IMG/VR virus record: IMGVR_UViG_3300029448_000030
Location: 1-61,195 of that record
Direction: 5' to 3' (one strand)
Origin: a virus
Length of the DNA stretch: 61,195 nucleotides
Part shown: piece after piece, positions 3,701 to 55,233 of the stretch
Numbering within the stretch: position 1 is the stretch's first letter
Layout: every line of letters begins with the position of its first letter
Made by a program: the position numbers and the translations under genes
The notes under the pieces: generated by a model
The model's input: the letters and a program-made list of their open reading frames with translations, nothing else
Databases searched by the model: none
Told to the model about the DNA's origin: nothing

Positions 3701-6700
3701 AAAAAAGGACCTTTTTGAAATGTAACTTTTCTTAATAAAGGATATATGATTTTTTGAAGCTTATTTTGAAAATTATAAAATTGAAGTGTTTCTACATTTG
3801 GTGCTCTTAATATTTGATTTTCAACCTCTTTTACAAGCATGTCAACAGGTTTTTGAGGTACGCTAAGTGCTTTAAACGTTTTCAAGACTCCTCTAGAACC
3901 TAAATCATAGACTTCAAAATCTTTTAATTTTTTTAATTCATCGTTTTCAGCTTTAGTTCTACCTTTTATAGCTTCTAATTCTAAACCTCTTTTTAAATCT
4001 CTTTTTTGTTGCTCTAATTCTTTTTTAATTTTAGGATCTTCTTCAGCTGCTATTCTTCTATTTATAGTTACATCAACATCGTCTATTGTTTCTAAAGTAA
4101 TTGCTCTATCACCTAATGGTAGTGTTTCTATAATAATAGGATCTCCATTTACATCTACAAAACCAAAAATAGGATCACTTAATAGTTCAACTAGTTTTTC
4201 TTGATCTTCTTCAAACTTCATTTTTTGCTCACCAACTTTAGACTCTTCGTCTATTTCACCTAAAGTTCTTTCATCTATTTCACTTGTAAATTTTTCAGTA
4301 GTAATTCCTGGTCTTTTTAAAGCTTGTTTTATTTTGTTATTAAGTTGAGAGTTTATCCATGCATTTAAATCATTGTTCTCAGTTATTAACTCACCTTTTG
4401 AATTTTTATAACCTTTATCGTCTTGAGCCTCAACTCTTTTAGTTATTTCAGCCTTACTCAAACCTTTAGCAGCTAGTTGATCTTTAAATTTATCTCTTAA
4501 TTTTAAAAACTCTTTATTAAAATTTCTAATATGTTTTATTAATTCAAAATTAGTTTCAAACAATAAATCTTCTTTTGCAATATTAGGTAATGAACTATAT
4601 CTAGATTCTATTCTATATTCAATAACTGTTTCGTACTCTTGCATTATATCATAAAGAACACTATCAATACCAGTTTTTGTAGAAAAAACATCGCGATCAT
4701 AATAGTTGTTTATGTTTTCTTTAAAATTTTCTGGAGTTAATTTTTTATCTACTCTTAAAGAAAACTTATCATTAATTTTATTAGCTAAATCACTTTCTTC
4801 TTCATCAATGTTAGCAGCGGCGACAGCTGTTGTTATAGCTTTTTTCTTTGCTGCTTTTCTTTTCTTTCTTGTATCCGCAATTTCAGCTGCTAATTCTATA
4901 GTGGCTAAGTCTTTTTTTATCTGTTTAGCTTGCTTTTCTTTTTGTCTATCTAATTTCTTTTTTAATTTAGGTATAGTTTTTTCGTCAAGTTCTTTTTCTT
5001 CTTCTTTTAATTTCTTTTTTTCTTCTTCTGTTAAACCTTGTTTTTCTCCTAATTTTTTAAATGCCCTGTTGTATTTTAGCATTCCTGATTTAACACTTTT
5101 ATTATAATCCTGTAACATGTTAAAAACAGCTTTACCACTTCCTAAATCTATATCTCTAGCTCCTACAAACTGTAATGCTCTTCTCCAAGAGTTTCTAATT
5201 TGTTCTATAGCTGAAGCATCATATTTTAAATTTACATCAGGATCTCCAATTGCTTCTGAGTATAAGTTCATAGCCTCTTCCCATGTATCACTATATTTTT
5301 GTTCTAAAATTTGATCAGCTTTTTGTTTACTAATAATTTTGTTTTTTACTTGTCTATTTACTTTATCTTTAATAGTTTCAAAACGAGTTAAATATCCTTT
5401 TAATCTTCTTTTGAAATCAGATGGCATAACACTTTGATCTAAATCATCTTCTAATTGTAAATCAAGTTTACCTAGTTCATTAAACAATGCTTTACCTAAT
5501 AATCTACCTGCTTCAGCATCATTTGAAACTACTTCATTTATTAAAGCGTGAAAAAATTCATGCTGAGCTGTTTGAGTCATACGTTTACCACCTTTACTTT
5601 TTGCAGCATTGTATTTAAATTCAAGAGCATATTTAGTACCATCTTGAGTAAACATAGCTCCAAAAGAATTACCTTTAAAGAATCTATTTTTTAAATACCT
5701 TTCAAATTCTTGGTTTGTTCTATCTCTACCTTTTTCTTTATCAAACTTGCTAATAGTATTTTTTAAATATTCTAAAGCTTCTTCTTCAGAGTTAAAGTCT
5801 TTATATATAGTTTTACCTGCAACACCAGCTCTGGCTGCTGCCATTATACCTTTTCGTTGAGCTTTAGTTAACTCGTCATAATAAGTATTATTTATTCTAT
5901 CTTTTAATTGTTGAATTTCATCATCAAAACCTGTAAAACCTTTTGGTGCTTTTTTCTTATCGTTTTCAAGTTTGTTTAACTGCTGTATATCTTCTAGTAT
6001 TGTAGAAGCAGCATTTGCTGACATATTAGGCGGTACATGATTTATTGTATTTCTATATTGATCAACTTCTCCAAGTAAATTATCAGCTTCTTCTTGAGTA
6101 TAAAGACCTTGATCAATTTGACTTGCTAATAATTTTTTTAAATCAGACTCATGGTAAGCCATATAAGCCAATGAGTTAAATCTATCAACAGCATCCCAAC
6201 CCATAAACTCTCTTATTTGTTGGTTTGAAGAATTTACAATCTTTCCAGCCCCTGGCATAAAAGCGCCAGCTGTAAAAGACAATGCAGAAGTGTGTATAAA
6301 ATCTTCTAAAGTATAATTTGATTTAAGTAATTGTTGACCAGCTTGTCTATTTATATCAGCTCCTATTGCTAGAGTTTCACCAGCTTGCTGTATATTTTCT
6401 TGAAAAAGTTCTTTCCAACCTTCTCTCTGAATCATATCACCTGTTCTAAGAATACCTTTTCCAGTTTCTTTTAAACCTTCTCTAGTTCCAAATCTTTGAC
6501 CTTGTGTTTTCCAAAACTCATTCCACCCTTTCCAACCTTGTTTCATATAAGTTTGAACAGCTACGTCAATATTCTCTTTAACAGGTTTTCCAAATAATAA
6601 ATTTTGAGCTTTAGTTTGAGGACTAATAGGCGCTGTAATAGCATACCAAAAACCTGTTTGAACAGAAGCGTTTGCAGCTAATTCTCTTGATTCATCATCT

Positions 6701-25948: not shown

Positions 25949-28159
25949 TTATTTTATTATTTTTGATAATGTTCCTTTATTACTATATTTTTTAAAACCT
26001 AAAGGCTTTGGCGTTAAAGTTCTAGTAAATATGGGTTTATACATGTTTCTATTACAACCCATTATTGCTAAACCACTACTAATAGAAGCATCGTGCTTTG
26101 TTCTATTATTAATATCGAATTTAGCCCAATCTTCTAATGTTTTTTGAAAATACATATCACCATATTTTGAACCTAAATTACCAATGTAGGTTTCTATGTA
26201 TGATTCTATAGCAGCGGCATGCGCTTGTTTTATATCTTCACTTGAGTTAGGTATTCCACCTATTTCTCTTTCTGTTACTGAAAGTTTCATTAAGAGTTTA
26301 TCAGGTCTATTCATACTAAAACCTCTATAACCTCTTCTTTTAAAATGATACAACAATCTTGGTTTATTATTCTCCGCAAGTATTGGCATACCGTAAAAAA
26401 CACAAGCCATTAAAACATCTTCAAAAAATATCTCCGCTGTTTGTGGTCTTGATATATATTCTAGAAAAAACATATTTGGTGGTATGGTTTCCATAGAAAA
26501 TTTTGTAAGTCCGTGTAGTGAACCATTTGAACCTCTTGAATCTACAGTACCAGATATATCGTATGGGTCACAACCAAAACATCCTGTATGATCATTACCC
26601 GGGTATCTTACACCGTTTTTCATTATTACATTATTTTGTAAATGAATTGGTGGAACCCATGATATATTAAATCTACCGTTTTCATTAGGCATAAAAATCA
26701 CCTTAGTATCTTTAACTCCGTGTTCCCATTGAAAAGAACCTTTTGTTACTGTTTTATAACTTTGACAATCTTCGTTGAAATCTATTTGCTCATATATCCT
26801 TACTAGATTAAATAAAGATGCTTTAGATTCATCTCTAAAAGCATGTTGAGTTGTTCGTGGAAATTGTCTATAAAATTCGTTTAATCCGTTTTGATCTTGC
26901 TTTAATCCTTCAACTTCGTTTTCCCAGTACTTAATAACCCCAAGCTCAATTTTGTCTCCTTTGGGTCCGATAACCGGTCGACTAGGTGTGTCGAACACAG
27001 GTAATCCATAAGAATCAATGTATCCTTCGTAGTTCCATTCCATAGGAATGAACAAAGAATAGAGTCCCGAACGAGTCTGTCCGTTGGCGTTTCGTTGCGT
27101 AACATTTGAGTCATCGTATAGTTTTTTAAAGTTATCACCTCCTTTATCTAAAGCGTTTGATGTTGATCCCATCATACACTTACCAATAATTCTGCTTCCT
27201 AATCTTAATGTAGTTTTTGTAACTCTCCAGTTATTTAAAATATTATTAGGTCTTTCCCATTTACCTGATTCATCATGTACTAATAGTTTTAATTTTTCAC
27301 CATCATAACTATTATCACCTGTGTTTTTCCAGTCAATAGTTGTGTCAAGACCTTTTAATTCTTCAAGAGTTTCGTTGTTATCTAATTTACGTCTAGTAAA
27401 TTTAGAGGCTGGCACTCTATATGCTAATTCTGTTTTAGGTCGATCCATACCATCTTGAATCGGTTTAAAAAAGAAAGGATAATTAACTGATATTGGTACA
27501 ACCTTATCAGTAAACATTTTTTTTGCATCAGGTCCAGATTTTGATAATATACCATATCTTGAATCACTTGATATTGTTGCTAAGTTTACAACTTCTCCGG
27601 ACGCCATGAAAGAGAATCCAGAACGACGGTTTTTGAGGTAGCACATTCCGTAACATCTTGTATCTGCTTTGCAAGCTTCCCAGAATATGAAGAATAATCT
27701 ATTGGCTTCTCTAAAGTCTGGTGCCCCAACGTCAATCTTACTCCACTGCAAGTACATATAATGAGTGCCAGTAAGATAAGTAGGAACATCTTTGTTATAA
27801 AACCAAAAACCTTCTTCTCTACGTGTAAACTCTTTATCAATGTAATCATACCATTTTTCTTTAAAATCTTCAGGATATTGTCTCCAATCAAAAACAGTTT
27901 TTATTTTAGATAGAATCTTAGGGTAATCTGTTTTACTCCATTTATTGTTATCAAAAGTATGTGTATCTTTTTCCTTAGGTAAAGCAATTTTTAAATCTTG
28001 TATTTCATAAATATCACCTATTTCTCCAGTTTTACTTATGACTATAACATCATGCTCTTTATTATAACCATATTCCCACTTTTTCTTTTTATTGTTTTTC
28101 TTTACAATATGTGGTTTAATATAGTTTTTTAATATTTTATATAAACTTTGCTGATACAT
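25949..28159 (-). CDS. Terminase large subunit (736 aa)
   Basis: Two-domain packaging motor. The ATPase domain has a deviant Walker A-like segment KNRRSGFS at 176-183 (Phe where Lys is usual) and a Walker B LLVHDE at 292-297. The C-terminal RNase H-like nuclease has the three expected acids: Asp531 in GCDPYD, Glu596 in ILAENN and Asp690 in KHDAS. The order and spacing of these motifs fit phage large terminases. The gene is followed without gap by the portal gene and overlaps the start of a putative small terminase by one base. Confidence 0.9.
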   Translation of the reverse strand: MYQQSLYKILKNYIKPHIVKKNNKKKKWEYGYNKEHDVIVISKTGEIGDIYEIQDLKIALPKEKDTHTFDNNKWSKTDYPKILSKIKTVFDWRQYPEDFKEKWYDYIDKEFTRREEGFWFYNKDVPTYLTGTHYMYLQWSKIDVGAPDFREANRLFFIFWEACKADTRCYGMCYLKNRRSGFSFMASGEVVNLATISSDSRYGILSKSGPDAKKMFTDKVVPISVNYPFFFKPIQDGMDRPKTELAYRVPASKFTRRKLDNNETLEELKGLDTTIDWKNTGDNSYDGEKLKLLVHDESGKWERPNNILNNWRVTKTTLRLGSRIIGKCMMGSTSNALDKGGDNFKKLYDDSNVTQRNANGQTRSGLYSLFIPMEWNYEGYIDSYGLPVFDTPSRPVIGPKGDKIELGVIKYWENEVEGLKQDQNGLNEFYRQFPRTTQHAFRDESKASLFNLVRIYEQIDFNEDCQSYKTVTKGSFQWEHGVKDTKVIFMPNENGRFNISWVPPIHLQNNVIMKNGVRYPGNDHTGCFGCDPYDISGTVDSRGSNGSLHGLTKFSMETIPPNMFFLEYISRPQTAEIFFEDVLMACVFYGMPILAENNKPRLLYHFKRRGYRGFSMNRPDKLLMKLSVTEREIGGIPNSSEDIKQAHAAAIESYIETYIGNLGSKYGDMYFQKTLEDWAKFDINNRTKHDASISSGLAIMGCNRNMYKPIFTRTLTPKPLGFKKYSNKGTLSKIIK

Positions 28160-46974: not shown

Positions 46975-47008
46975 CACGGACTTACGAGTAATATGATATG
47001 ATGGAATC
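46975..47008 (+). promoter_or_regulatory. Early promoter-like element, weak copy 0
   Basis: CACGGACTTA at 46975-46984 has the perfect upstream box. At the expected place, 15 bases later, the sequence is GATGGAATC instead of GATAATATA. It lies 36 bases before a complete copy, so it may be a tandem weak promoter or an accessory site. Confidence 0.4.
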
Positions 47009-48729: not shown

Positions 48730-48763
48730 CACGGACTTATAAATAAAAACTATAGATAATATT
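48730..48763 (+). promoter_or_regulatory. Early promoter element 4 (CACGGACTTA-N15-GATAATATT)
   Basis: Boxes at 48730-48739 and 48755-48763. The next start codon is only 3 bases downstream (48767), so transcripts from here would be leaderless or nearly so. Confidence 0.7.
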
Positions 48764-48766
48764 AAT

Positions 48767-49012
48767 ATGGAAAATTTATATAATAAACTTAAGCCAAATG
48801 TGAAGTTTAAACTTAAGCAGAACAAGGTTAAGTATAAAAACTCAGTAAATTATATTATAGCGAAGTTACACGTCTACACTCGTTATAATGAAATGACAAT
48901 AGACGATATAAGAACTTTAGCCTGTTTTTCAGAAGTAGATATTCATGATTGGACAAGTTACGACTGGAAATGGGGTGAAAAATTAATTGAAGCAGATGAA
49001 AAAGAATCATAA
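48767..49012 (+). CDS. Basic hypothetical early protein (81 aa)
   Basis: Lys-rich N-terminal half followed by a mixed helix (Met-Thr-Ile-Asp-Asp-Ile-Arg-Thr-Leu) and a Trp-rich acidic end. Start is three bases after the promoter-like downstream box. It overlaps the next short gene by 17 bases. No family recognised. Confidence 0.65.
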   Translation: MENLYNKLKPNVKFKLKQNKVKYKNSVNYIIAKLHVYTRYNEMTIDDIRTLACFSEVDIHDWTSYDWKWGEKLIEADEKES

Positions 49013-49157: not shown

Positions 49158-49295
49158 TAATAATAACAGTATCAACCAGGGAATCCCATGGTGATGAAGC
49201 AATATTACACCTTAGACGTGGATGCGAGTGTGGCATTGTTACTCGACCTAAAAACGTACGAGCACGTCTAAAATATAAGGCCTCTAGAGGCAACA
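49158..49295 (+). ncRNA. Structured non-coding segment upstream of tRNA-like module 1
   Basis: No gene fits here. Three inverted repeats stand out: ACCA-GGG/CCC-TGGT (49175-49192, one bulge), an eight-base perfect pair TAGACGTG/CACGTCTA (49213-49220 with 49263-49270) enclosing a CGAG/CTCG helix, and a 12-base palindrome GCCTCTAGAGGC (49280-49291). GC content is above that of the neighbouring genes, which is typical of structured RNA in AT-rich genomes. It may be part of one larger RNA with module 1. Confidence 0.45.
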
Positions 49296-49341
49296 GAGCA
49301 TACTACGGTACTAAAGTGCGGGTTCGAATCCCGCTATGCTC
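49296..49341 (+). ncRNA. tRNA-like module 1 (46 nt)
   Basis: Acceptor-type stem GAGCATA/TATGCTC (seven pairs, or eight with flanking A-T), a 15-base segment containing ACGGTACTAAAG, and a perfect T-arm (five GC-rich pairs, loop TTCGAAT) at 49318-49334. There is no anticodon arm. The 3' end is 21 bases before the start of the next gene. A possible ATG at 49336 lies inside the acceptor, so it is not used as the gene start. Confidence 0.55.
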
Positions 49342-49362
49342 TCTAACTTTAAATTAATAACT

Positions 49363-49725
49363 ATGAGCTGGAAAACAGAACAGTATCATCTAGAAAATGC
49401 ATATGCTTTGGCTATGCTTCACGAAGATGGTATCGTAGAAACTACTACGAAAAGACAATGGCGCAATGGTACGCGTCAATTTAAACTACCAACAGGTCAA
49501 ACACTAGCAACCTATAAATCAGGTTATGTACGTAGATGTGACAGTAGCGATAGAATATGGCAACTAAATCACAAGTATAAAAGAAAAGTTAGATGGACTA
49601 TGTTAGATGGTATGAATCTAGTTACAAGAGAATATGATATGTGGGATAGAGCTAAGATCTTTTCAGGTCTAGCTAGATTAAATTTCTTACATAAATACGC
49701 AAAGAAAAATTACTTAAATAAATAA
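49363..49725 (+). CDS. Basic hypothetical early protein (120 aa)
   Basis: Start chosen at 49363 because an earlier in-frame ATG (49336) lies inside the tRNA-like acceptor. The product is basic, Trp/Tyr/Arg-rich: Met-Ser-Trp-Lys-Thr-Glu-Gln, then a beta region with Arg-Gln-Phe-Lys-Leu-Pro-Thr-Gly-Gln, and a helical end with Ala-Arg-Leu-Asn-Phe-Leu-His-Lys. It could bind nucleic acids. It is preceded by the conserved leader CTAACTTTAAAT. Confidence 0.65.
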   Translation: MSWKTEQYHLENAYALAMLHEDGIVETTTKRQWRNGTRQFKLPTGQTLATYKSGYVRRCDSSDRIWQLNHKYKRKVRWTMLDGMNLVTREYDMWDRAKIFSGLARLNFLHKYAKKNYLNK

Positions 49726-49728
49726 ATT

Positions 49729-49956
49729 ATGAAACTAAATGGATTTGAAAACTATATAATTACTGAAGCAGTAAATTATTATAAAGACAAGGCTGAAAAA
49801 GAAGTAGCAAAATTAGAAAAAGCTAAGGGTAAAGATGGTAAAACCTGTTTAATAGCTCCTGGTTATTATACTATGGTATGTAAAGATTTACTATATAAAA
49901 TAGATAGATTAACTTTAGCATCTTATATTAAAGAAAGAAATAATGAAAACAAATAA
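49729..49956 (+). CDS. Small hypothetical early protein (75 aa)
   Basis: Helical, Lys/Glu-rich protein with Tyr-Lys-Asp-Lys-Ala-Glu-Lys-Glu-Val-Ala-Lys-Leu-Glu and a later Asp-Leu-Leu-Tyr-Lys-Ile-Asp-Arg-Leu helix. Three bases follow the previous stop codon and it overlaps the next gene by 14 bases. No family recognised. Confidence 0.65.
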   Translation: MKLNGFENYIITEAVNYYKDKAEKEVAKLEKAKGKDGKTCLIAPGYYTMVCKDLLYKIDRLTLASYIKERNNENK

Positions 49957-50146
49957 AGCATTAGATTTAATTAGTAAACTATTAATGTTTGCAGTAGTTT
50001 ATTTTGTAGGTGTATTTACTGCAATGTATTTCTGCTACAAACAACCACTTGATGAGCATTTACTAATACAAAATAGAGAAATTAATTTTCCTGAACAAGA
50101 ATGTTACACTCGTTCAGATATAGAATTGATAGTTTATGGTGAATAA
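49943..50146 (+). CDS. Small single-pass membrane protein (67 aa)
   Basis: A hydrophobic helix (about 13-32: Leu-Leu-Met-Phe-Ala-Val-Val-Tyr-Phe-Val-Gly-Val-Phe) follows a short basic N-terminus, with a 35-residue soluble, slightly acidic tail containing two Cys (one in the helix end, one later). It is the last gene before promoter element 5. A role in the host envelope is possible. Confidence 0.6.
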   Translation: MKTNKALDLISKLLMFAVVYFVGVFTAMYFCYKQPLDEHLLIQNREINFPEQECYTRSDIELIVYGE

Positions 50147-50152
50147 TATCTA

Positions 50153-50186
50153 CACGGACTTAATAAATTATACTACAGATAATATA
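50153..50186 (+). promoter_or_regulatory. Early promoter element 5 (CACGGACTTA-N15-GATAATATA)
   Basis: Perfect boxes at 50153-50162 and 50178-50186, 18 bases before the next start codon at 50205. The element begins 6 bases after the stop codon of the membrane protein. Confidence 0.75.
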
Positions 50187-50204
50187 AATGTAAAATAAAT
50201 AACT

Positions 50205-50417
50205 ATGGCAAAAATGAAAGAATTAGATCGAGTTGCACAAGTTTGTGCTGAAAATATGTTAGAACAATTATATGAGAATATACATTGGTCTATGCCTGCT
50301 GATGAAAATCTTGAAGGCGATGAATATATGGAAATGCATGACTATATTATGTCAAGAGCATTACATTATATGTCTAAAAAAGTAAGAAAAGAATTAAAAT
50401 TATCAAAAAAGAAATAA
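50205..50417 (+). CDS. Small hypothetical early protein (70 aa)
   Basis: Helical throughout, with an acidic middle (Pro-Ala-Asp-Glu-Asn-Leu-Glu-Gly-Asp-Glu-Tyr) and a basic Lys-rich end. First gene after promoter element 5 and 2 bases before the zinc-ribbon-like microprotein. No family recognised. Confidence 0.65.
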   Translation: MAKMKELDRVAQVCAENMLEQLYENIHWSMPADENLEGDEYMEMHDYIMSRALHYMSKKVRKELKLSKKK

Positions 50418-50419
50418 TT

Positions 50420-50542
50420 ATGGAATGGTACGATTATATGAATCCTCATGACCAACCAGAGTATGAGTGTGTGGTTTGTGAAAGACCAATACATGAAGAA
50501 GGGGTTTGTAGTAGTGATTGTTGGTACGCTAGCATGCGATAG
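50420..50542 (+). CDS. Zinc-ribbon-like microprotein (40 aa)
   Basis: Four cysteines at 17, 20, 30 and 34 (CxxC-x9-CxxxC) in a 40-residue chain, with acidic and aromatic residues around them. This spacing could bind one zinc ion. It follows the 70-residue gene by 2 bases and precedes a 290-base gene-free region. Small Cys4 proteins are known from phage early regions as inhibitors or adaptors, but no function is shown here. Confidence 0.55.
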   Translation: MEWYDYMNPHDQPEYECVVCERPIHEEGVCSSDCWYASMR

Positions 50543-50722
50543 TGTTTTTCATAGTTATAGTAAAGCATGTTAGTAGCTAGACGAGTAGGTTAATAGGATA
50601 TGTAAGACTCAGCGGGAGTATTCCTTAGAGCATTATCACGTAACTGAATTGCTAGTGCAACCGGAAGCGCACCGCTAACTACCTACTATGGTATTAAAGT
50701 TATGAGCGACTCGAGGTTGGAT
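50543..50722 (+). ncRNA. Structured non-coding segment upstream of tRNA-like module 2
   Basis: No coding frame is convincing. Pairing elements include AGTAGGT/ACCTACT (about 50585-50591 with 50682-50688), a GTGC/GCAC hairpin around 50656-50673, and GGA-GTAT-TCC near 50615-50624. A 13-base stretch TATGGTATTAAAG (50687-50699) recurs inside module 3 at 51836-51848. An alternative acceptor-like AGCTAGA at 50575-50581 could also pair (one wobble) with the 3' end of module 2, making one RNA of about 236 bases. Confidence 0.45.
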
Positions 50723-50810
50723 AACTAGGTCTGGAATTAGTAAGGACGGGTAAAACCTCAGAAAGACTAAGACTATCGACGGATAAAGAGGTTCAATCCC
50801 TCTTCTAGTT
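50723..50810 (+). ncRNA. tRNA-like module 2 (88 nt)
   Basis: Acceptor-type stem AACTAGG/TCTAGTT (seven pairs, last G-U), then TCTGGAATTAGTAAGGACGGG, which resembles a tRNA-Leu/Ser D-arm or the D-loop of tmRNA, and a good T-arm (AGAGG-TTCAATC-CCTCT) at 50787-50803. The length matches a class II tRNA, yet I found no five-pair anticodon stem with a seven-base loop. The 3' end is 22 bases before the next start codon. Confidence 0.5.
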
Positions 50811-50832
50811 ACTAAATTTTAAATAGATAAAT

Positions 50833-50964
50833 ATGGAATTTTTAGAAAAAAATAGATTTAGAGGTATTACTTTCTTAGGTAACGGTAAAGTCCACAACGG
50901 TTACATTGATAAAGAACAACCTTATGATGAATATTTAAAGTGGGCAGCAAAAAATATATACTAA
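50833..50964 (+). CDS. Small hypothetical early protein (43 aa)
   Basis: Short frame that starts 22 bases after tRNA-like module 2 with the leader ACTAAATTTTAAAT. The product has a beta-hairpin-like Arg-Gly-Ile-Thr-Phe-Leu-Gly-Asn-Gly-Lys-Val and an aromatic C-terminal helix. Its stop overlaps the next start (TAATG). No family recognised. Confidence 0.6.
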   Translation: MEFLEKNRFRGITFLGNGKVHNGYIDKEQPYDEYLKWAAKNIY

Positions 50965-51311
50965 TGGGTAAATTAAAAAACACAAGTGGTAATGGTACTT
51001 GGTTTCATGATGTAACTTTTGTAGCTACTCCTAATGAAATGAAAGCTATAGCAGAAAATAATAACTGTGAATACTGGGATAACTATGGTGCTATAAATGA
51101 TAAGTCACAATTTGATTTTAACTTTGAAACTGAAGAAGAAGTAGTGTTTACAGTTTATGACTGGAAAGAATATAGACACTATGAATTAGATGAGATGTTA
51201 TTCTGGCATATTGGTGGTTATACTAAAGCTGATACAGAAACAGGTTTAAAAGAATTAGAAGAAAATTTAAAAGATGTAAGAAGAGATCAAGCATATACTA
51301 CACGGACTTAA
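50964..51311 (+). CDS. Acidic hypothetical early protein (115 aa)
   Basis: The start at 50964 overlaps the previous stop codon by one base and is preferred over the upstream ATG at 50940 inside that gene. The protein is acidic and aromatic, with Gly-Thr-Trp-Phe-His-Asp-Val-Thr-Phe strands, a Glu-Glu-Glu-Val-Val-Phe-Thr-Val-Tyr-Asp-Trp stretch and a Leu/Glu helix near the end. Promoter element 6 lies inside its last codons. Confidence 0.6.
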   Translation: MGKLKNTSGNGTWFHDVTFVATPNEMKAIAENNNCEYWDNYGAINDKSQFDFNFETEEEVVFTVYDWKEYRHYELDEMLFWHIGGYTKADTETGLKELEENLKDVRRDQAYTTRT

Positions 51312-51334
51312 ACAAATAAACTATAGATAATATA
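51301..51334 (+). promoter_or_regulatory. Early promoter element 6 (CACGGACTTA-N15-GATAATATA)
   Basis: Perfect boxes at 51301-51310 and 51326-51334. The first box overlaps the last codons of the 115-residue gene; the next start codon is 13 bases downstream at 51348. Confidence 0.75.
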
Positions 51335-51347
51335 TTAAATAATAAAT

Positions 51348-51608
51348 ATGGATTCAAAGAAAAAATACGAGGAGATGGTAGAAGATGGAGAAATAATATC
51401 TAACACTGCTAGAGAATTATATCAGCTATCTAAATTACCTCCACCAATGCCAAGACCTAAAGGTGTTATGATGGTACCAGATGAGGCTATGGCTAGAGAA
51501 TTATGGGAACAATACTTTAAAGCTAATAGTCCAGGTATATATGGATGGGAAGATTTTGAAATAGCTTACTCATTCATAATATGGTGCTATGCAAAAAGAA
51601 TAAAATGA
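51348..51608 (+). CDS. Small hypothetical early protein (86 aa)
   Basis: Acidic helical N-terminus (Tyr-Glu-Glu-Met-Val-Glu-Asp-Gly-Glu), a proline-rich hinge (Leu-Pro-Pro-Pro-Met-Pro-Arg-Pro-Lys) and an aromatic-rich helical C-terminal half with Glu-Leu-Trp-Glu-Gln-Tyr-Phe. It overlaps the next gene by 4 bases. No family recognised. Confidence 0.65.
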   Translation: MDSKKKYEEMVEDGEIISNTARELYQLSKLPPPMPRPKGVMMVPDEAMARELWEQYFKANSPGIYGWEDFEIAYSFIIWCYAKRIK

Positions 51609-51823
51609 AAAATATAATAAGTAATATGAGAAAATTTAATAGATATAAAGAAAACTTGAGACGAGTAGGCAACGATATATGGTCTTACTCTACTCATGTA
51701 GCAACAGTAGAATATCCTGGTAAACTAATACAACATGGTTGGTGGAGTGTAACAACACAGAAACATATTAACTATGTAGCAAGGGAATTAGGTTTAACTA
51801 TTGAAAAAGATTATACAGATTAA
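51605..51823 (+). CDS. Small basic hypothetical early protein (72 aa)
   Basis: Start chosen at 51605 (ATGA overlap with previous stop). Basic N-terminal helix with Arg-Lys-Phe-Asn-Arg-Tyr-Lys-Glu-Asn-Leu-Arg-Arg, then a beta region with Thr-His-Val-Ala-Thr-Val-Glu-Tyr-Pro-Gly and a C-terminal helix. It ends 4 bases before tRNA-like module 3. No family recognised. Confidence 0.6.
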   Translation: MKNIISNMRKFNRYKENLRRVGNDIWSYSTHVATVEYPGKLIQHGWWSVTTQKHINYVARELGLTIEKDYTD

Positions 51824-51827
51824 TCTT

Positions 51828-51931
51828 AGACATGATATGGTATTAAAGAGATAACACTAATGTGTAGCTGGAACATAAGAAACACGCTAACGAATAAGAA
51901 CTCTTACGAAGGTTCAACTCCTTCCATGTCT
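51828..51931 (+). ncRNA. tRNA-like module 3 (104 nt)
   Basis: Perfect acceptor-type stem AGACATG/CATGTCT, then ATATGGTATTAAAG (D-loop-like, with GG at positions 12-13), AAGAG pairing with CTCTT just before the T-arm, and the T-arm GAAGG-TTCAACT-CCTTC at 51908-51924. The path acceptor - D-loop - connecting helix - T-arm - acceptor is the same as in the tRNA-like domain of tmRNA. There is no anticodon arm or tag frame. The next gene starts 21 bases after the 3' end. Confidence 0.55.
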
Positions 51932-51952
51932 ACTAACTTTAAATTTAAAACA

Positions 51953-52414
51953 ATGGCAGAATTATTAACTGATGAAATCATCAAAGAAAAATTAGAACAA
52001 GATGGCTTTATGGAAGAGCCTGATGGACCGTGGCTACTTGAGTATATTCAAGAAGAACATGGCGGTAAACTAGATAACACAAGCGACTTTGTAGATGACA
52101 AATGGACTTTAAAAATATACAGTGAATCAACTTATGATTCTTATGATATATTTTGGTGTACTCATGATGAAAGACCTTATGTATCACAAGATGGTTTTTA
52201 CTATGAAGATTATAATGAATGGTCAGAAAGAGCATTAAATGAACTATCTAGCGGCTCTGATGTATGGATAGATCCTAACTTGTGGTCAGATATGGAATAT
52301 GAATTTAATTATGCACTGGAAGAATGGTGGCAAGATGTATATGAAGAATTATTTCAAGAGAAAAAAGATGAACTATTAGATTCAGGAGATTATGAAGAGA
52401 ATGATAAAGAATAA
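51953..52414 (+). CDS. Strongly acidic early protein (153 aa)
   Basis: Start chosen at 51953; an earlier in-frame ATG at 51860 would lie inside the tRNA-like module. About 46 Asp/Glu against 10 Lys/Arg give a very negative protein, with many Tyr and Trp. Such charge distribution is seen in DNA-mimic anti-restriction proteins (T7 Ocr), but also in other early proteins, so this is only an idea. The 13 bases after 52401 also begin a short membrane peptide in another frame. Confidence 0.65.
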   Translation: MAELLTDEIIKEKLEQDGFMEEPDGPWLLEYIQEEHGGKLDNTSDFVDDKWTLKIYSESTYDSYDIFWCTHDERPYVSQDGFYYEDYNEWSERALNELSSGSDVWIDPNLWSDMEYEFNYALEEWWQDVYEELFQEKKDELLDSGDYEENDKE

Positions 52415-52484
52415 TATAGAAGGAATATGTGTTATAGTATTTGTTGTAGCTTATACTATAATAGTAAATAAATTATATGAATAA
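52401..52484 (+). CDS. Possible membrane micropeptide (27 aa)
   Basis: Very short frame overlapping the end of the acidic gene and the start of the sigma-factor gene. It is almost entirely a hydrophobic helix (Ile-Cys-Val-Ile-Val-Phe-Val-Val-Ala-Tyr) with a basic start. It is too short for certainty, but hydrophobic helices rarely arise by chance in-frame between two genes. Confidence 0.35.
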   Translation: MIKNNIEGICVIVFVVAYTIIVNKLYE

Positions 52485-53001
52485 TAGATTAGGAGAAATA
52501 TTTAAAAATAACTACGGAGATGTCTTTGCTGTTATATATAATAAAACAAAGAATAAACATTTGGCACACGAAATAGTTCAAAGAACTTTCTTTAAATTAT
52601 TAAATAGTAAATCTAAACCTAAAGATACTAAGCTACTGTCATATGTGATAGTAGCTGCAGGTACTACATTGTTAGACCATTATAGATCGCTTAAAACTAG
52701 AAGAAAAAATCTAGATGAAAATAGATATGACGAAAATATTTTAGACATGTTGGATAATAACCTATCAATTGAAGACGTTATAATACTGAATGATAATAAT
52801 AAATTAATTAAGAAATTAATTGATTCTTTATTACAAGAACAAAAAGATATTATAATATATAGGTATTATAAACATATGACGTTTAAGCAGATAGCTAAGA
52901 AAACAAATGTAAGTATTAATACAGCTTTAGGTAGACATAGATATGCTATTAATAATTTAAAGAAATTAGCACACGGACTTGATATAAATAACTTTAGATA
53001 A
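52477..53001 (+). CDS. ECF-type sigma factor (174 aa)
   Basis: Two-domain sigma factor of group IV form. Region 2 (about 10-80) contains Asn-Lys-His-Leu-Ala-His-Glu-Ile-Val-Gln-Arg-Thr-Phe-Phe-Lys-Leu; region 4 (about 118-170) contains Tyr-Tyr-Lys-His-Met-Thr-Phe-Lys-Gln-Ile-Ala-Lys and Ser-Ile-Asn-Thr-Ala-Leu-Gly-Arg-His-Arg. It lacks regions 1 and 3. A promoter-like element lies in its last codons. It would redirect host RNA polymerase to phage promoters; which ones is unknown. Confidence 0.82.
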   Translation: MNNRLGEIFKNNYGDVFAVIYNKTKNKHLAHEIVQRTFFKLLNSKSKPKDTKLLSYVIVAAGTTLLDHYRSLKTRRKNLDENRYDENILDMLDNNLSIEDVIILNDNNKLIKKLIDSLLQEQKDIIIYRYYKHMTFKQIAKKTNVSINTALGRHRYAINNLKKLAHGLDINNFR

Positions 53002-53885: not shown

Positions 53886-54497
53886 ATGAATAATCGCAAT
53901 ATAGATTGGTTGGTTAAACATCGAATTGTATTTAAACGAGATCCTATAACAGATATACCTACAATTGAAACCCATCAATACAAGTATTATGAGAATGGGA
54001 CATATGAGTGTTATCATCTATTTAATAGTAAGGCTAAAATTACTACATATAAATCGTTAAAGTGGCACTTCTTTGTATTATATTATCTTAATATGGATAA
54101 TATAATAAACTCTGACTTTGTTACTTTATCTAGATTTATAGCTAATAAAGATAATGGATTTGTTACGTTTTTTATTAAAAACAAACTATTAGAAGATATT
54201 ATTAGAGATGTATTACAACAAGGTGGAGAGCCTCCAAAAAATAAACTAAGGAAGATAATATTTAAGATGTCTACAGGGTTATCTACTAGGGAAAAGTTAT
54301 CAATTGTAGGTAAATTAATTGGTAGAAGCAAAGTATCTCAAGAAGATATTTATAACACTATGATATGTATGTCTGATTCAGAAAAGATAACAATAAGTAA
54401 ACTAGCTAAGACATTAAAATGTTCTACTAGAACTATACATAGACGCATGAGTAATGATTTAAAATTAGAAAAAGAAAGATTAAATGAAGAAATATAA
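53886..54497 (+). CDS. Helix-turn-helix protein between the sigma factors (203 aa)
   Basis: The C-terminal 45 residues contain a helix-turn-helix: Ile-Ser-Lys-Leu-Ala-Lys-Thr-Leu-Lys-Cys-Ser-Thr-Arg-Thr-Ile-His-Arg-Arg-Met. A helical region (about 125-160) precedes it; the N-terminal half is Tyr/His/Lys-rich without a recognised fold. The end overlaps the second sigma factor by 14 bases, so the two are coupled. A regulator of phage transcription is plausible. Confidence 0.65.
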   Translation: MNNRNIDWLVKHRIVFKRDPITDIPTIETHQYKYYENGTYECYHLFNSKAKITTYKSLKWHFFVLYYLNMDNIINSDFVTLSRFIANKDNGFVTFFIKNKLLEDIIRDVLQQGGEPPKNKLRKIIFKMSTGLSTREKLSIVGKLIGRSKVSQEDIYNTMICMSDSEKITISKLAKTLKCSTRTIHRRMSNDLKLEKERLNEEI

Positions 54498-55233
54498 TAT
54501 TTCTAATTACGTTAGGTATAAAGAAGATCTAAAAAGATCTATGCCTAAAGATAAGTTCTATGATTATTATACACGAGATGAACTTATTATAAAGTTTTTA
54601 CCTTTAGTTGAGGCAATGGCTAGAAAATTCTCTACAGATAGTAGAGCGTGTGGAGTATTAACAATAATGGATTTAATACAAGAAGGAAGTATTGGATTAG
54701 TTAAAGCTGTTGATAAACTTGATTGGTTGTTATTAAGTGATTCAGAAGATATAGAAAAAACATTAAAATCTTTTTTCTCTAAAAGAATAAAAGGAGCAAT
54801 AAGAAGAAGAATAGATATGTTAAGAGGTACAATGCGTATTCCTGAACATAAGATGAATGAAATGCGTAGTAACCCTAAAGATAAAAAAATGGTAGCTATG
54901 TTTTTTAATAGTATATTTTTATCAATAGATAACAATAGCAATGTAGATGAGAATATGATGTATGAAATTCCAGATAAATCTGAACCATATAATATACAGT
55001 TAATGAATGTGTATTTAAAAAGTTTAATGGTAAAACATTTAAATGAAAATGAATATGAAGTATTAAGATTAAGTTATGGTTTAGACTGTGATAAATACTC
55101 AGCTAAAGAAATAGCTGAAGAATTAAAAATAGTAGGACCGAGTGCTTATGTTAGAGTTTCAGAGCTAAAAAAGCAAGCGGTACAAAAACTTATAGATAAT
55201 GTAGATCACTCGCAAGTGCTTGATTATCTGTAG
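54484..55233 (+). CDS. Sigma-70-family RNA polymerase sigma factor (249 aa)
   Basis: Region 2 core: Leu-Pro-Leu-Val-Glu-Ala-Met-Ala-Arg-Lys-Phe, then Met-Asp-Leu-Ile-Gln-Glu-Gly-Ser-Ile-Gly-Leu-Val-Lys-Ala-Val-Asp-Lys-Leu-Asp, close to the RpoD/RpoS form. Region 3-like basic part Lys-Gly-Ala-Ile-Arg-Arg-Arg-Ile, and region 4 with Tyr-Glu-Val-Leu-Arg-Leu-Ser-Tyr-Gly-Leu and a helix-turn-helix near the end. Much shorter than host primary sigma (no region 1.1). It probably directs middle or late transcription by host polymerase, possibly including the long leftward block. Confidence 0.85.
   Translation: MKKYNISNYVRYKEDLKRSMPKDKFYDYYTRDELIIKFLPLVEAMARKFSTDSRACGVLTIMDLIQEGSIGLVKAVDKLDWLLLSDSEDIEKTLKSFFSKRIKGAIRRRIDMLRGTMRIPEHKMNEMRSNPKDKKMVAMFFNSIFLSIDNNSNVDENMMYEIPDKSEPYNIQLMNVYLKSLMVKHLNENEYEVLRLSYGLDCDKYSAKEIAEELKIVGPSAYVRVSELKKQAVQKLIDNVDHSQVLDYL

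Follow-up and report, generated by a model that had tools for sequence, protein, structure and literature searches.

What are the three transfer RNA (tRNA)-like modules, each without an anticodon arm, that stand some twenty nucleotides (nt) ahead of start codons in the virus record IMGVR_UViG_3300029448_000030? The record is 61,195 bases long, and its entire length, analysed here, is referred to as the window; we call the modules M1, M2 and M3. The answer that we consider probable from the sequences of the window and its relatives is that they serve as tRNA punctuation of early phage transcripts, to be cut by host ribonuclease (RNase) P and RNase Z. The primase/helicase, structural proteins and GroEL place the window phage with podovirus-like phages of Flavobacteriia, and its nearest cultured kin are Cellulophaga phages phi10:1, phi38:1 and phi13:2, Maribacter phage Panino and the elemoviruses. 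At the DNA level, the region gave no match when compared with phage records. Relatives are represented by 80 IMG/VR loci (L001–L080) with a primase 77–89% identical.

All three modules have a 7-base-pair (bp) acceptor-type stem, a GG-bearing D-loop-like strand that forms no D stem, a T stem of 5 bp capped by a TTCRANY loop and a single unpaired base at position 73, and they lie on the + strand where the original prediction, made from the window alone, had placed them (Table 1). The 21, 22 and 21 bases that it gave between module and ATG hold when counted from the acceptor stem, and become 20, 21 and 20 nt when counted after position 73. A strict descriptor of the fold finds 3 matches on the + strand of the window and 0 on the − strand, compared with a mean of 0.003 and a maximum of 1 on both strands of 300 Markov-resampled windows. 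Folding z-scores are −2.7 for M1, −2.3 for M3 and −0.3 for M2, so the interior of M2 is poorly defined by energy alone. While the acceptor, the TTCRANY T arm and the GG of the D-loop are those of a tRNA, the cloverleaf with an anticodon arm is absent. ARAGORN reports no tRNA and no transfer-messenger RNA (tmRNA) in the window, M3 reaches 15.3 bits against the tRNA model (cut-off 29 bits), and an Rfam scan of the window at E ≤ 1 returns one chance microRNA match only, with no group I intron and no ribozyme. The suggestion that such modules are unusual tRNAs with insertions finds no support for M1 and elements of its size, as the acceptor-to-T-stem interval of M1 is only 15 nt and leaves no room for an anticodon arm. 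R1, a covariance model of the smallest elements, recovered only the T arm of M1 (E 1.7); it is too tight to the sequence of that class and is not evidence for the window modules.

The modules belong to a family that recurs in the relatives. At least one element is present in 45 of the 49 loci with at least 7.3 kilobases upstream of the primase, and a non-tRNA element in 40 of the 49. Four kinds occur: minis of ~41–47 nt, including M1, made of an acceptor, a 9–15-nt strand such as ATGGTTAAT and a T arm; long elements of ~70–145 nt, including M3, with a helix (P2) and changing inserts at the place of the anticodon arm; class C, to which M2 belongs, whose acceptors read AACTAGG..CTAGTT and whose T arm is preceded by a GACG-loop hairpin; and real tRNAs, of which the primase-selected relatives hold 23 tRNA-Met(CAT), 5 tRNA-Gln and 1 other. 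Ten relatives share the M2 class, keeping the GACG loop as the stem pairs of the hairpin change. Against genome contigs, the mini pattern gave 7 matches, of which 4 lack complementary acceptors and arose by chance, and 3 are full minis on short contigs of metagenome-assembled genomes, probably phage DNA in the bins.

Selection on the structure is evident from the covariation of its stems, which are kept in the relatives. In 30 distinct 41-nt minis, all 11 pairs are formed in every one (330 of 330 cells), 10 of them, including each of the six in the acceptor, vary at both partners, and covariation scores 0.957, compared with 0.228 for shuffles and at most 0.144 for slid registers. Because these minis were found with a pairing criterion, an acceptor-blind pattern, in which the D-loop, T-loop and CTAA alone are fixed, matters more: complementary acceptors are found in 45 of its 46 distinct matches. 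Among the close kin of M1 (L001, L002, L006, L262, L269 and L271), the D-loop CTACGGTACTAARGT is invariant and the acceptor and T stem show compensatory changes. In 34 of 54 inserts, P2 forms an uninterrupted run of at least 4 pairs in a fixed register (mean 4.4, maximum 11 when the 3′ ends are re-dealt), a register picked after seeing the free-register result, which was weak (10 of 57 at p ≤ 0.05). The loss or replacement of anticodon arms and the high variability of the sequences might suggest remnants of tRNA or tmRNA genes in decay, functionless now; this is contradicted by the perfect pairing and compensatory changes of the minis and by the fixed-register P2, as well as by a strict strand and spacing and by presence in nearly all long-flank relatives (45/49), and we give it almost no credence.

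The position of the elements relative to genes is also constrained. In the primase-selected relatives, 106 matches lie on the + strand and 3 on the − strand. Of 25 minis, 20 have an open reading frame (ORF) that starts 12–26 nt past position 73, as do 21 of 29 real tRNAs and 19 of 52 long elements, compared with 9% of random positions, and the offset to the ORF start peaks at 14 and 20 nt (loci selected by their leader are excluded from the position and upstream-gap statistics and included in the offset histogram). Where an upstream ORF is detectable, the distance to its stop codon is at most 10 nt, or the two overlap, in 18 of 39 cases for long elements and in 11 of 20 for tRNAs. At such distances, as for M3, whose first base is 4 nt past the upstream stop codon, there is no promoter room between stop and element, and this spacing suggests that the flanking genes are co-transcribed. 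An early reading in which minis run into the stop codon upstream found no support in the upstream-gap analysis.

An indication of function comes from the genes downstream of the elements, which we clustered by sequence before comparing the kind of element ahead of each cluster. Orthologues of the M1 gene are preceded by a mini in 3 phages, a long element in 6, a class C element in 1 and tRNA-Met in 2. Those of the M3 gene follow tRNA-Met, tRNA-Gly or long elements with the acceptor AGACATG, GGGCGCG or GGGCGTG, the GGGCGCG/GGGCGTG elements occupying the orthologous place in L002 and L006, and the family MANMSYCRFENT has tRNA-Met ahead in 7 cases and long elements in 4. Elements and tRNAs stand 13–22 nt ahead of orthologous genes. 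Since the kinds swap before orthologues, they are united only by the acceptor, T arm and elbow, the unit that RNase P and RNase Z recognise. Of the roles raised in the original prediction, processing by these two enzymes is favoured by this exchange, with the cleavage itself a prediction; a role as decoys for host tRNA enzymes has no positive evidence.

In the processing model, the modules would be tRNA-mimicking marks within polycistronic early transcripts. Each is predicted to fold as the top half of a tRNA, with a 12-layer acceptor/T stack and a D-loop-like strand able to form the elbow. A cut by host RNase P at the 5′ border of the element would create the 3′ end of the upstream messenger RNA (mRNA), and host RNase Z would cut past position 73 to leave the downstream mRNA with a defined 14–21-nt A/U-rich leader beginning CUAA, a leader that would suit hosts not reliant on Shine-Dalgarno sequences; an effect on expression would be expected from both cuts. 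An acceptor, T-stem and T-loop are known to suffice as an RNase P substrate that is cut correctly by a 12-bp ruler (model AT1; PMC11143913). The anticodon arm would be dispensable and could hence be deleted, as in minis, swapped for a changing P2 helix with inserts, as in long elements, or kept, as in a real tRNA. Real tRNAs need release at both ends to work, so the mRNA downstream of them has to start in the CUAA leader, and we infer that minis and long elements are released from the same leader.

The same spacing data would also fit a model in which RNase P cuts the 5′ side only and the mRNA retains the fold as a structured 5′ cap against 5′-dependent decay, the 14–20-nt gap freeing the start codon. 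The rarity of offsets below 12 nt agrees with a stable fold having to clear the ribosome. However, true tRNAs occupy these positions too, share the leaders and need 3′ release to function, and we regard a retained cap as unlikely. Several observations do weigh against processing at both ends. No element is present in 4 of the 49 long-flank relatives, and 33 of 52 long elements have no ORF directly at 12–26 nt, the next feature often being another structured RNA or tRNA. As the elements do not encode CCA, RNase P would meet N73-CUA instead of RCCA, and the long class retains A73 and a G3.U70 pair, for neither of which processing has a need.

That pair belongs to tmRNA, whose tRNA-like domain the original prediction had seen in the path of the modules, a comparison that the relatives bear out. 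Long elements have the stemless D-loop and P2 helix of this domain, and those of L080, L070 and L058 pass the Rfam tmRNA model RF00023 (cut-off 47 bits) at 63.9, 64.7 and 53.1 bits. In these elements the message and pseudoknot region is wholly absent, no tag ORF or resume codon is recognised, and the inserts leave 304–326 of the 374 model positions unmatched. For the GGGCGTG element of L013, tmRNA is the best model at 25 bits, under the cut-off, and M3 does not rise above noise against RF00023. G3.U70 with A73, the alanine identity, is found in all but two GGN-type long elements and in 22 of 22 of the acceptor-blind set, with the adjoining pair 4:69 varying between CG, AT, GC and TA. The minis have G3.U70 in 2 of 30 cases, and it is absent from M1, M2 and M3. 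It is thus likely that many of the long elements are tmRNA domains with no message, which could nonetheless be charged.

Alanine-charged long elements might then titrate SmpB/EF-Tu or trans-translation, or donate alanine, as suggested by their retention of G3.U70 and A73 and by the matches over the Rfam cut-off. Nevertheless, M1–M3, though at orthologous places, lack the pair, which excludes charging as the function common to the elements; the pair is rare in minis, no message or resume codon is recognised, and non-alanine elements, tRNA-Met and tRNA-Gly stand before the same genes, the alanine identity being interchangeable among orthologues. As an explanation of the family, a message-less tmRNA seems to us quite improbable. 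A dual-purpose RNA in flavobacterial phages, in which a message-less, alanine-chargeable domain would cut the polycistron and also, after charging, act on ribosome rescue or alanine use in the infected cell, is a speculative and rather unlikely extension. A scan covering part of the phage proteins showed neither SmpB nor the product of a tRNA-processing gene.

It is also conceivable that the folds remain uncleaved as regulatory leaders that bind a phage or host protein, in the manner of tRNA-mimic operators like thrS. The 5′-leader position and the recurring sub-motifs in the inserts would suit such operators, but the elements share no insert or anticodon-like part and minis consist of the elbow and 12-layer stack only, which makes this very improbable. 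As an observation in its own right, further structured motifs lie in the non-coding DNA before M1 (49160–49295) and M2 (50543–50722). Those before M1 are CCAGGGAATCCCATGG at 49176 and TTAGACGTG..GAGTGTGGCATTGTTACTCGAC..CACGTCTAA around 49212–49272, and those before M2 are ACCGGAAGCGCACCGCTA at 50660 and ATGAGCGACTCGAGGTTGG at 50702. They recur in relatives on the + strand only, sometimes within P2 inserts, as if they were shuffled RNA modules.

The leaders of M1, M2 and M3 in the window all begin CTAA. A promoter-like repeat, CACGGACTTA..TATAGATAATAT, lies 527–570 nt upstream of each module, so that a single element lies in the stretch that starts at each of the three repeats; the repeats may act as promoters. 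The CACGGACTTA motif has 11 window matches with at most 1 mismatch, compared with 1.7 by chance. Copies are found at 46975, 47373, 47420, 47797, 48730, 50153 and 51301 on the + strand and at 26506 on the − strand, the later copies being followed by CTATAGATAATAT. The window phage also encodes two sigma-factor-like proteins (52477–53001 and 54484–55233).

Table 1 Coordinates of the modules and associated features in the window and of elements in cultured phages.
Record	Feature	Position	Strand	Description
Window	M1	49296..49342	+	47-nt mini with U73; GAGCATA / D-loop-like CTACGGTACTAAAGT / GCGGG TTCGAAT CCCGC (T arm) / TATGCTC / T
Window	M2	50723..50811	+	Class C element with TATC-GACG-GATA hairpin 5′ of the T arm; AACTAGG / 57 nt / AGAGG TTCAATC CCTCT / TCTAGTT / A
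Window	M3	51828..51932	+	Long element with P2 helix AAGAG/CTCTT where the anticodon arm would be; AGACATG / ATATGGTATTA..P2 AAGAG..CTCTT.. / GAAGG TTCAACT CCTTC / CATGTCT / A
Window	M1 leader CTAACTTTAAATTAATAACT	49343..49362	+	20 nt, A/T-rich, up to ATG 49363
Window	M2 leader CTAAATTTTAAATAGATAAAT	50812..50832	+	21 nt, up to ATG 50833
Window	M3 leader CTAACTTTAAATTTAAAACA	51933..51952	+	20 nt, up to ATG 51953
Window	Gene after M1 (MSWKTEQYHLENAY..)	49363..49725	+	No Pfam match; orthologue cluster of 12
Window	Gene after M2	50833..50964	+	43 amino acids, MEFLEKNRFRG..
Window	Gene after M3 (MAELLTDEIIKEKLE..)	51953..52414	+	Orthologue cluster of 6
Window	Promoter-like repeat CACGGACTTA..CTATAGATAATAT	48730..48772	+	566 nt upstream of M1
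Window	Promoter-like repeat	50153..50195	+	570 nt upstream of M2
Window	Promoter-like repeat	51301..51340	+	527 nt upstream of M3
Panino	Element	4941-5032		CDS0022 ends 4931, CDS0023 starts 5054
phi38:1	tRNA-Glu	30646-30575		Between gp051 and gp050
phi38:1	Identical tRNA-Glu	28676-28605		Ahead of gp046
phi38:1	Long element	20817-20678		gp031/gp030 pair, ahead of gp030
phi13:2	Element	27796-27876		gp072/gp073 pair, ahead of gp073

The same layout of stop codon, element and start codon recurs under independent annotation in the cultured phages Panino, phi38:1 and phi13:2; in phi38:1 (KC821614) the three elements are on the minus strand. Each of the twin tRNA-Glu genes of phi38:1 stands 20 nt before a gene and away from the tRNA cluster, a placement that punctuation fits better than codon supply. 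The tmRNA annotated in Panino (PP540027 27557–27889), discussed in PMC11590407, overlaps both tRNA-Asp and tRNA-Thr; it is likely to be an ARAGORN artefact.

The real tRNAs of the family (for example, L002 3169–3240 and L055 4253–4327), mostly tRNA-Met(CAT), include several that look initiator-like, with an A1xA72 or G1xA72 mismatch, and these may be phage-borne initiator tRNA genes 14–21 nt ahead of a start codon. Other viral contigs, chosen by leader sequence (L108–L226), carry tRNA-Arg(TCT) 14–19 nt before a conserved ..VRRKGVHAKT.. family (such as L147, L135 and L131), and in L221 and L153 tRNA-Ile(TAT) stands 20 nt before another gene family, so the layout may be wider.

If the processing model is correct, a widespread marine phage group separates its early messages with tRNA mimics, which would give a reason for the odd single or duplicate phage tRNA genes ahead of early genes. 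It would also provide natural RNase P/Z substrates of 41 nt and tmRNA-like domains that survive without a message. The cultured phages phi38:1, phi13:2 and Panino make punctuation directly testable. To our knowledge, message separation by tRNA mimics is otherwise known only from mitochondria.

The original prediction knew of no described system with this arrangement, which is right in part: a search of the open-access literature gave no report of such tRNA-mimic punctuation in a phage (a provisional novelty), and related systems are established elsewhere. In mitochondria, intergenic tRNAs (the tRNA punctuation model) and, in plants, the tRNA-like t-elements mark endonuclease cuts in polycistrons (PMC8003010). 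The phage elements are likewise tRNA-like folds between genes, and the layout matches, with cleavage suggested by analogy; unlike t-elements, they occur in phage genomes, would rely on bacterial enzymes, can shrink to 41 nt, keep a fixed distance of 14/20 nt to start codons and are readily traded for tRNA genes from one relative to the next. Phage RNAs cut by host RNase P include M3 RNA, C4 RNA and the T4 gene 32 mRNA (PMC11143913). Minis resemble artificial minimal substrates of the AT1 type in having only the acceptor, T-stem and T-loop, whereas here the candidate substrates are natural, repeated, placed before many genes and equipped with a conserved D-loop-like strand that would complete the elbow. 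The theta ribozymes, which resemble hepatitis delta virus ribozymes and adjoin phage tRNAs (PMC10879173), are similarly RNA-processing elements tied to phage tRNAs; they differ in being self-cleaving, and the window has no Rfam ribozyme match. Jakobids have a mitochondrial tmRNA without a message (a 2004 study cited in PMC7050145). With the tRNA-like domain of tmRNA the phage elements share the acceptor, stemless D-loop, P2-type helix and T arm and, in the long class, G3.U70 and A73; they differ in lacking a message and pseudoknots, in a shortened P2 with changing inserts, in numbering several per genome, in their place at gene leaders and, for the window copies, in having no alanine identity.

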